Shown: positions 59,400-61,339 of the stretch, in pieces
Position numbering within the stretch: the stretch's first letter is position 1
How the letters are laid out: the number at the start of each line of letters is the position of its first letter
NCBI RefSeq assembly: GCF_001592755.1
Contig: NZ_LUKF01000017.1
Span: 62,001 to 126,000, forward strand
DNA: 64,000 nt
DNA from: Bdellovibrio bacteriovorus
Lineage (GTDB): Bacteria; Bdellovibrionota; Bdellovibrionia; Bdellovibrionales; Bdellovibrionaceae
Direction of reading: 5' to 3'
Program-made: the position numbers and the translations under genes
Notes under the pieces: generated by a model
What the model was told of the DNA's origin: nothing
Seen by the model: the letters and a program-made list of their open reading frames with translations, nothing else
Database searches by the model: none

Positions 59400-59609
59400 T
59401 TAGAACAATTTATTAGCCAGGTATAACGGCAACAGAATATACAACGTCACATCGCGAATCAGATAGTAGGCAAAAAAGACCGCGAAGAACTTCCACCCAT
59501 ATCGTTTTATCACGCCCTTCAGACCGCTTTCACGAAAGACCTGCTTGGCCTCACGAACAACTTTTGGCGTCAGGCGGTCGAGCAATTTGGGTTTTGCGGA
59601 GTTTGCCAT
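59400..59609 (-). CDS. Small membrane protein under structured leader
   Basis: 69 residues. A basic N-terminal half (LLDRLTPKVVREAKQVFRES) is followed by a hydrophobic helix (FFAVFFAYYLIRDVTLYILL). No family recognised, but the composition is coding-like. What is unusual is its leader: a terminator-like hairpin whose 3' arm contains the AAGGGG Shine-Dalgarno, a U7 tract, and the ATG immediately after. Expression probably depends on read-through or opening of that hairpin. Confidence 0.65.
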   Translation of the reverse strand: MANSAKPKLLDRLTPKVVREAKQVFRESGLKGVIKRYGWKFFAVFFAYYLIRDVTLYILLPLYLANKLF

Positions 59610-59720
59610 AAAAAAAGGCCCCTTAACTGAAGTCTTCTTTCCTTTATAAGAGCTTAGTTTAAGGGGTCAAGTAAAAGGGCAGGACCGCAAAGAGGGGTTT
59701 TCGCGGGAGCCTGCTTCTAT
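59610..59720 (-). promoter_or_regulatory. Structured leader / attenuator or small RNA
   Basis: A predicted 110-nt leader. Hairpin 1 (59714-59679) is GCAGG/CCTGC plus CCGC/GCGG with a loop containing ACCCCT. Hairpin 2 (59668-59617) is a 12-bp stem with one bulge and one wobble, followed by U7 (59616-59610) and then AUG. The 3' arm AAGGGG is both terminator arm and Shine-Dalgarno, and the hairpin 1 loop could pair with it instead. This is the form of a transcription or translation attenuator; it could equally be a small RNA with the ORF read through. Confidence 0.5.
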
Positions 59721-59726
59721 ATCCTT

Positions 59727-59755
59727 ATTTCATTCTTGATGGTGCATTTTGTCAA
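59727..59755 (-). promoter_or_regulatory. Promoter with perfect -35 box for structured leader
   Basis: On the minus strand TTGACA (59755-59750), a 17-nt spacer and TGAAAT (59732-59727). The start point would be near 59720, just before hairpin 1 of the leader. Confidence 0.6.
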
Positions 59756-59794: not shown

Positions 59795-60280
59795 ATGAAC
59801 ATGAAAAATTTCAAACTGACAGCCTTTGTGAATCTTTACGGTCTTTTAAAAATTCCGTTGGTCTTATTCGTCAATCCACGCGTGATTGAATCAACAGCGC
59901 AACGTTTCGTTTTAAAAATTCCTTTAAACTATCGTACTAAGAATCATCTTAATTCCATGTACTTCGGGGCTTTAGGAATAGGTGCTGAACTTTCAATTGC
60001 GGCAGCAGCTGTGGTGGCGATTTCAGAAAGTAAGCAGAAAATTGATTTTATTTTTAAAGATTTCTCAGGTCAGTACATCAAACGCGCCGATGGCGATGTG
60101 CATTTTATCTGTGATGAGATCGAAGCTGTTCGGGGTTTGATTGAAGAATCAAAAACCAACCCGGCTCGTCTTGAAAGAAAGATGAAAGGGTATGCGGTTG
60201 TACCTAAATCAAATCCGACCGAGCCCGTAATGACTTACGAGCTCACTCTGTCGGTGCGTAACAGATCAATCAAGTCCTAA
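59795..60280 (+). CDS. DUF4442 hotdog-fold protein
   Basis: 161 residues. NHLNSMYFGALGIGAELSIA is the helix of the hotdog fold seen in DUF4442 thioesterase-like proteins, followed by the beta-sheet strands IDFIFKDFSGQYIKRA and MTYELTLSVRNR. Such proteins may act on acyl-CoA or acyl carrier thioesters, but activity is unproven. A TAGAAT box lies 7 nt before the ATG with no Shine-Dalgarno. Convergent with the nitronate monooxygenase gene (15-nt overlap). Confidence 0.82.
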   Translation: MNMKNFKLTAFVNLYGLLKIPLVLFVNPRVIESTAQRFVLKIPLNYRTKNHLNSMYFGALGIGAELSIAAAAVVAISESKQKIDFIFKDFSGQYIKRADGDVHFICDEIEAVRGLIEESKTNPARLERKMKGYAVVPKSNPTEPVMTYELTLSVRNRSIKS

Positions 60281-61264
60281 GCTTGAAAGATTTTTTACGC
60301 TTTGATCATACTCTGTGATGAGTTTTTCATAGATCTCTTTCACGCTTAAAATCTCTTCCACTAAGCCCACCGACTGGCCCGCGGTCCAAACAGTCTTCCA
60401 GGTGGGTTTGCTGGCTGCTTCCTCTAAAGACTTCATTCCCATAAGATGAATCAGTGGCACCATGTATTTCTTCGTCATCTTGTGGTCTTTTAAAACCTTC
60501 ATGGCCCACGGAAGGTCTGTTCCGATTTTTTGCACGTAGGGCGTGTTAATAACTGCCGCAGGTGTTCCCGACACTCGCGTGGTCATCACGATATCTTCCG
60601 GAGACGATTTAATAATCGCTTCTTTATAAGCTTCGTCGACTTGCGCTTCACGACTGGCAATGAATCTTGTTCCTACGCTAACACCAGAGGCACCTAGAGC
60701 TAAAACCGCTGACATCATCGAACCATGAGAAATTCCTCCCGCGGCCACGATAGGAATTTGCAAGCGAGTTTTAAGCCAAGGAATTAATACCAAAGGAGAA
60801 ATGGGACCCGCATGTCCACCAGCGCCGCTAGACACTGCAATCACACCATCGGCGCCCATGTCTTGAACCTTCAAAGCGTGTTCTAGATTTGTGACATCGC
60901 AAAGAACTTTCGCGCCGTTTTTGTGGGCTTCTTTGATCACTTCCTTGGGGCTTCCTAAAGAGGTGATAAAAAGTTCCACACCGTTGTCTAGAGCGTGCTT
61001 CAGATCTTCTGACTGGCGAGCGTTGCTTTTGTTGACGATGATGTTAACGCCAATGGGTTTTTTCGTGCGGCTTTTGATTTCTTTTAAAGCTTCTACGTAT
61101 TTTTCAATAGGTCGGTAATTTAAAGCCGGGAAGGTTCCAATGCCGCCGCTCTCACTGGCTTGTACGACGATGTCAGTATTGCTGACCAAAAACATCGGCG
61201 CGGCGATGATGGGATAATCAATCTTCATCATCTCGGTGAATGGCGTTTTGATTTTCTTTAACAT
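60266..61264 (-). CDS. Nitronate monooxygenase (2-nitropropane dioxygenase family)
   Basis: 332 residues of an FMN TIM barrel: IDYPIIAAPMFLVSNTDIVV, GGIGTFPALNYRP, the active-site SSGAGGHAGP with catalytic His, IVAAGGISHG and GVSVGTRFIASREA for phosphate binding. The family oxidises alkyl nitronates, a detoxification role; some members have other flavin-dependent roles. It lies 75 nt downstream of a tetR-family gene on the same strand, behind a terminator-like hairpin that contains its own Shine-Dalgarno. Confidence 0.92.
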   Translation of the reverse strand: MLKKIKTPFTEMMKIDYPIIAAPMFLVSNTDIVVQASESGGIGTFPALNYRPIEKYVEALKEIKSRTKKPIGVNIIVNKSNARQSEDLKHALDNGVELFITSLGSPKEVIKEAHKNGAKVLCDVTNLEHALKVQDMGADGVIAVSSGAGGHAGPISPLVLIPWLKTRLQIPIVAAGGISHGSMMSAVLALGASGVSVGTRFIASREAQVDEAYKEAIIKSSPEDIVMTTRVSGTPAAVINTPYVQKIGTDLPWAMKVLKDHKMTKKYMVPLIHLMGMKSLEEAASKPTWKTVWTAGQSVGLVEEILSVKEIYEKLITEYDQSVKNLSSLGLD

Positions 61265-61310
61265 AAAAAAACCCTCCTAGAGTCCCATTTAAGGATACGA
61301 GGAGGGGTTT
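61265..61310 (-). promoter_or_regulatory. Terminator-like hairpin hiding a Shine-Dalgarno
   Basis: On the minus strand AAACCCCTCCT (61310-61300) pairs with AGGAGGGTTT (61278-61269), one C bulged, around a 21-nt loop, then a run of T to 61265 and ATG at 61264. AGGAGG is the natural Shine-Dalgarno of the nitronate monooxygenase gene. It may terminate the tetR transcript, attenuate the downstream gene, or both. Confidence 0.6.
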
Positions 61311-61339
61311 AAGAGGCAAGGGAATTCTTGGATTTAATC

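Follow-up and report, generated by a model that had tools for sequence, protein, structure and literature searches.

The window, by which we mean the whole 64,000-nt stretch of Bdellovibrio bacteriovorus DNA analysed here, carries on its minus strand a gene for a 69-aa membrane protein (p69) that matched no family or structure in Pfam, NCBIfam or the PDB. The intergenic space between p69 and a divergent DUF4442 gene (div) holds a predicted small RNA, which would start at a putative promoter (P1) and end at a terminator-like hairpin directly before the p69 start codon (Table 1). A first-pass annotation of this DNA had described a TTGACA -35 box with 17-nt spacing, an RNA of ~110 nt with hairpin 1 and a terminator hairpin, and a terminator 3' arm that doubles as the Shine-Dalgarno (SD) sequence and leads through U7 into the ATG. 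Each of these features was recovered: the -35 box lies on the minus strand and P1 is backed by its conservation, the predicted RNA measures 111 nt and both of its hairpins covary, and the overlap of arm, SD, U-tract and start codon can be read directly from the letters. A further pair of boxes, TTGACC-16-TATAAA (P2), went unmentioned in that annotation and lies inside hairpin 2. The window RNA folds with a minimum free energy of -32.8 kcal/mol (z -2.45), a stability equalled in 1/200 shuffles. Its P1 -10 box is weak (4/6 consensus matches), and a consensus promoter and terminator scan called neither P1 nor the hairpin-2 terminator, because position 2 of the -10 is not an A and the loop of hairpin 2 exceeds the length that the rule allows. 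No conserved open reading frame that could encode a leader peptide was seen within the RNA.

Table 1. Features of the p69 locus and of a neighbouring overlay, in window coordinates.
Feature	Position	Strand	Remarks
P1, putative sRNA promoter TTGACA-17-TGAAAT	59727..59755 (-35 59755-59750, -10 59732-59727)	-	predicted start ~59720
Predicted small RNA	59610..59720	-	111 nt; 77-141 nt in relatives
Hairpin 1	59679..59714	-	C-rich loop ACCCCUCUU in the window copy
Hairpin 2, putative sRNA terminator	59619..59666	-	3' arm is also the p69 SD
P2, putative internal p69 promoter TTGACC-16-TATAAA	59643..59670 (boxes 59670-59643)	-	inside hairpin 2
AAAGGA, fitting ANGGA (CsrA-like)	59640..59645	-	in the hairpin-2 loop, overlapping the P2 -10
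Shine-Dalgarno AAGGGG	59619..59624	-	within the hairpin-2 3' arm, 9 nt 5' of the ATG; from sequence
U7 tract	59610..59616	-	runs into the ATG at 59609; from sequence
p69, 69-aa membrane protein gene	59400..59609	-	
div, divergent DUF4442 gene	59795..60280	+	syntenic anchor of the sRNA; Pfam DUF4442
Second overlay, TTGCCT-16-TATCCT	61264..61319	-	CCCTCCT in the spacer pairs SD AGGAGGG; T7; ATG of a nitronate monooxygenase-family gene

We compared the locus across 24 Bdellovibrio congeners, with the window genome as G000. The p69 orthologue occupies the syntenic place in 15/24, beside div, DUF1634 and TauE genes; div itself was found in 61/66 genomes of the family. P1 precedes p69 in 13/15 of these genomes. 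Every one of the 13 P1-bearing leaders places hairpin 2 over the SD, and 12 of them carry the hairpin-1 structure, that of G011 being the least similar. Most p69-bearing copies also share the sequence GCACCAT within the P1 spacer. Six genomes in which p69 is missing from this locus (G010, G012, G013, G015, G022, and G023) encode distant p69-like small membrane proteins at other loci, which may reflect relocation or duplication of the protein family.

The spot beside div was extracted from all congeners to find further copies of the RNA. The first copy standing alone emerged as a weak model match in G016, where the same RNA lies at the syntenic place and p69 is absent. Eight such copies were identified in total (G008, G010, G012, G013, G015, G016, G020, and G023), all at loci lacking p69, and each has a promoter-like P1, hairpin 1 and a terminal hairpin that leads into a U-rich tract, the G010 copy being the weakest in this respect; hairpin 1 itself serves as the terminator in G012 and G023. 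The RNA is thus present in 21/24 congeners and missing from G002, G005, and G022. Nearly all of the 21 share a P1 of the form TTGAC[A/T] with a 17-nt spacer; the spacing is less clear in G014, and the G012 variant reads TTGCAG-17-GATAAT. Retention in eight species whose locus has no p69 shows that the RNA is independent of this gene, and the species that lost or never had p69 offer a natural experiment separating the two. No genome yielded a credible copy other than the syntenic one. Searching with a family-wide model gave no convincing match at any other site, and no copy was recognisable outside the genus, where the best model matches (G027, G046, G048, and G058) were unrelated hairpins or coding sequence. 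The first-pass annotation knew of no class for this RNA, in agreement with our Rfam search, in which neither the window nor the element nor any of the stand-alone copies scored above the gathering threshold of a family. At the sequence level the RNA has its own promoter, an intrinsic terminator and covarying secondary structure, and it is most likely an uncatalogued sRNA gene common to most Bdellovibrio predators.

Support for the secondary structure came from arm-permutation and covariation tests, both of which ignore shared ancestry: hairpin-1 arms paired far better with their own partners than across species (mean duplex energy -20.8 vs -9.4 kcal/mol, z -9.1, permutation p ~1e-5, 14 sequences), the same arm swap for hairpin 2 gave p 0.002 for whole halves and 0.0003 for the outer arms, and column-wise covariation of hairpin 2 was 0.314 against 0.186 in shuffled alignments, a score reached in 0/500 shuffles and by no slid control. 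The size of hairpin 1 ranges from none (G007) to ~60 nt and its loop sequence varies; with length and loop both variable, it has no aptamer-like core. CCCUC recurs in the loop region of 17/21 copies and GUUCUCA in 11/21, and many relatives show the form GUUCUCA..UUCCCUC. The hairpin-2 loop contains AAGGA in 17/19 copies bearing this hairpin, including those without P2. CsrA is encoded in 4/4 genomes tested, and we speculate that the loop could be a candidate CsrA site.

P2 is woven into hairpin 2, whose 5' arm falls within the promoter spacer and whose loop contains the -10. All 15 p69-bearing genomes carry the -35 TTGACC (CTGACC in G007), followed by a spacer of 15-17 nt and a TATAAA-like -10 that is looser in G005. 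Among sRNA copies, this -35 occurs in 13/13 with p69 and in 0/8 without it (Fisher p 5e-6, phylogeny ignored), an association that links P2 with p69 and P1 with the sRNA. The sole exact match to TTGACC-N14-17-TWTAAAGGA in the genome is P2 itself. Two genomes have p69 and P2 without P1, namely G002, where no P1 is recognisable, and G005, which also lacks the masking hairpin; P2 alone thus seems enough for p69 expression.

We infer transcription, termination, translational effects and action in trans along the following lines. P1 would produce a small RNA of ~75-140 nt, divergent from the DUF4442 gene and composed of hairpin 1 with its C-rich loop and a terminator. Where p69 lies downstream, hairpin 2 would act as the terminator while also supplying the P2 spacer (5' arm), the P2 -10 (loop) and the SD (3' arm). 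Since the P1 RNA carries both arms of hairpin 2, it would either end before p69 or, on read-through, keep the SD masked. A P2 transcript would start past the 5' arm, and because it lacks this arm its SD should be free. The membrane protein would then be made from P2, and P1 would yield the sRNA and silence its own read-through. The sRNA probably acts in trans, its C-rich loop pairing with SD regions of target mRNAs. We consider it probable that the locus is organised in this way, as an sRNA gene transcribed from P1 whose terminator doubles as p69 signals, with p69 expressed from P2. Points against it are the weak P1 -10 of the window copy, the missing loop motif in four p69-bearing species, the absence of the HD100 copy from a published attack-phase sRNA set (see below) and the outcome of a target search. 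This search, by exact complement of the loop, yielded no target: matches outside the locus fell mostly within a conserved coding stretch of a single ATPase gene. In five congeners this gene, PilB/GspE-like as judged by eye, contains a 13-nt complement of the loop motif in its coding sequence, probably through protein conservation.

Other readings of the same features have to be weighed against the sRNA gene with an internal p69 promoter. The first-pass annotation had proposed a riboswitch-like attenuator acting on p69 in cis, with hairpin 1 sensing a signal and toggling the terminator/SD hairpin. This would account for the retention of P1 and of both hairpins, the second overlapping terminator and SD, before p69 in most of the 13 species, about half of which have a tract of U5-U7; the run before p69 spans 2-7 in relatives, however, and is degraded in several p69-bearing species. 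A cis attenuator is not expected to outlive its gene, yet the RNA and its terminator persist at the syntenic locus of the eight congeners without p69. The hairpin-1 loop does contain the CCCCU that was proposed to compete for the SD, but the best fold found that pairs the SD with upstream sequence reaches -24.2 vs -32.8 kcal/mol, and neither of the two folds proposed as an exclusive switch leaves the SD unpaired. Forced alternative pairings are ~2-20 kcal/mol worse, with the SD still paired in each. Covariation, suggested at the outset as a check, supported hairpins 1 and 2. The loop/SD alternative is absent, like the loop motif, from four p69-bearing species (G014, G021, G007, and G011) and energetically poor elsewhere. 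We found neither a conserved ligand-binding core, hairpin 1 being without a constant core and absent in G007, nor a conserved exclusive fold that frees the SD or removes the terminator. P2 moreover bypasses the supposed switch and offers a simpler route to a translatable mRNA, and we regard attenuation as distinctly unlikely.

A further alternative is an RNA without trans function: the P1 transcript would be only a silent isoform that blocks p69 synthesis from read-through, as for T4 gene e or I-TevI, which provide the precedent (PMC2988022, PMC3014915). As far as the letters tell, the T4-type elements are in place, with a hairpin over the SD that would mask it on long transcripts only and, inside that hairpin, an internal promoter whose transcripts would lack the 5' arm. 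What makes this reading unlikely is that P1, hairpin 1 and the terminator are kept in eight species with no p69 to silence. It is very improbable that the locus consists of DNA-level signals, that is, two promoters and an inverted-repeat operator with incidental RNA structure. The P1 and P2 boxes are indeed among the most conserved bases, and an inverted repeat is made up by the two arms of hairpin 2, but the arms of hairpin 1 covary strongly over varied sequences and loop lengths, a property not required of a protein operator, and loops are variable.

An overlay of similar design lies nearby in the window, before a nitronate monooxygenase-family gene (Table 1). Nine congeners keep it, with arm changes that compensate each other (permutation p 0.0024), and in most of them T7 runs into the ATG. 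Located 3' of a TetR gene, this hairpin can be read as the putative terminator of that gene. Clear SD overlays numbered only three in the ~0.8 Mb sampled, those of p69, the nitronate monooxygenase-family gene and an NmrA-family gene after recN. In the last case (G000:C16:460152-460197, plus strand), a perfect terminator hairpin lies after recN; its 3' arm, AAGGAGG, forms the SD of the NmrA-family gene, and T7 and the ATG come next. We rejected the terminator-SD-AUG overlay as a genome-wide habit: in the ~0.8 Mb sampled, hairpins with T5 followed by ATG (25 and 27) were not above permuted trinucleotides. The interest of the design lies in its compactness, with one hairpin that would serve as terminator and ribosome-binding-site mask and hold the promoter of the next gene, at two neighbouring genes. 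A bolder conjecture, which we advance tentatively and consider rather doubtful, is that in a genus-wide Bdellovibrio sRNA gene terminator, promoter spacer and SD are one and the same element, such that ~60 bp would balance a trans-acting RNA against a membrane protein; P2 would have originated in the terminator arm or have decayed from it, and the AAGGA loop may bind CsrA.

Among known systems, riboswitch and attenuator leaders share with this locus a terminator-like hairpin that overlaps the SD beside a start codon. Unlike them, the Bdellovibrio RNA has no aptamer-like core and no alternative fold with a free SD, and it is kept without the gene. Within the genus, a mapping study of strain HD100 described eight attack-phase sRNAs, of which merRNA carries a c-di-GMP aptamer (PMC3627812). 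The RNA described here is likewise an intergenic structured RNA, but it coincides with none of the eight and does not match the merRNA family. In the HD100 genome the c-di-GMP riboswitch lies within the interval published for merRNA. The HD100 copy (~2,063,597-2,063,730, plus strand) is accordingly not among the eight attack-phase sRNAs, and the growth phase was unmapped in that study (PMC3627812). The present RNA is a further conserved sRNA candidate of the genus, with predicted start, structure and end.

Several sRNAs, including RsaE, RNAIII, FsrA, and LhrC, pair with SD regions through C-rich UCCC loops (PMC4132741). The Bdellovibrio RNA resembles them in being structured, with a UCCC-type stretch that is unpaired and could bind SD regions; it comes from a different phylum, and the likeness observed is one of loop type. 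The closest parallel to the arrangement at p69 is found in phage T4, where long transcripts of gene e and I-TevI hide the SD and transcripts from a nested late promoter, which lack the 5' arm, are translated (PMC2988022, PMC3014915). Both systems combine an SD-masking hairpin with an internal promoter whose transcripts start beyond the 5' arm, the transcripts being predicted in our case. They differ in that the long transcript of Bdellovibrio appears to be a conserved sRNA that persists independently, its hairpin has terminator character, and, unlike the T4 late promoter, P1 and P2 both look like housekeeping-type promoters.
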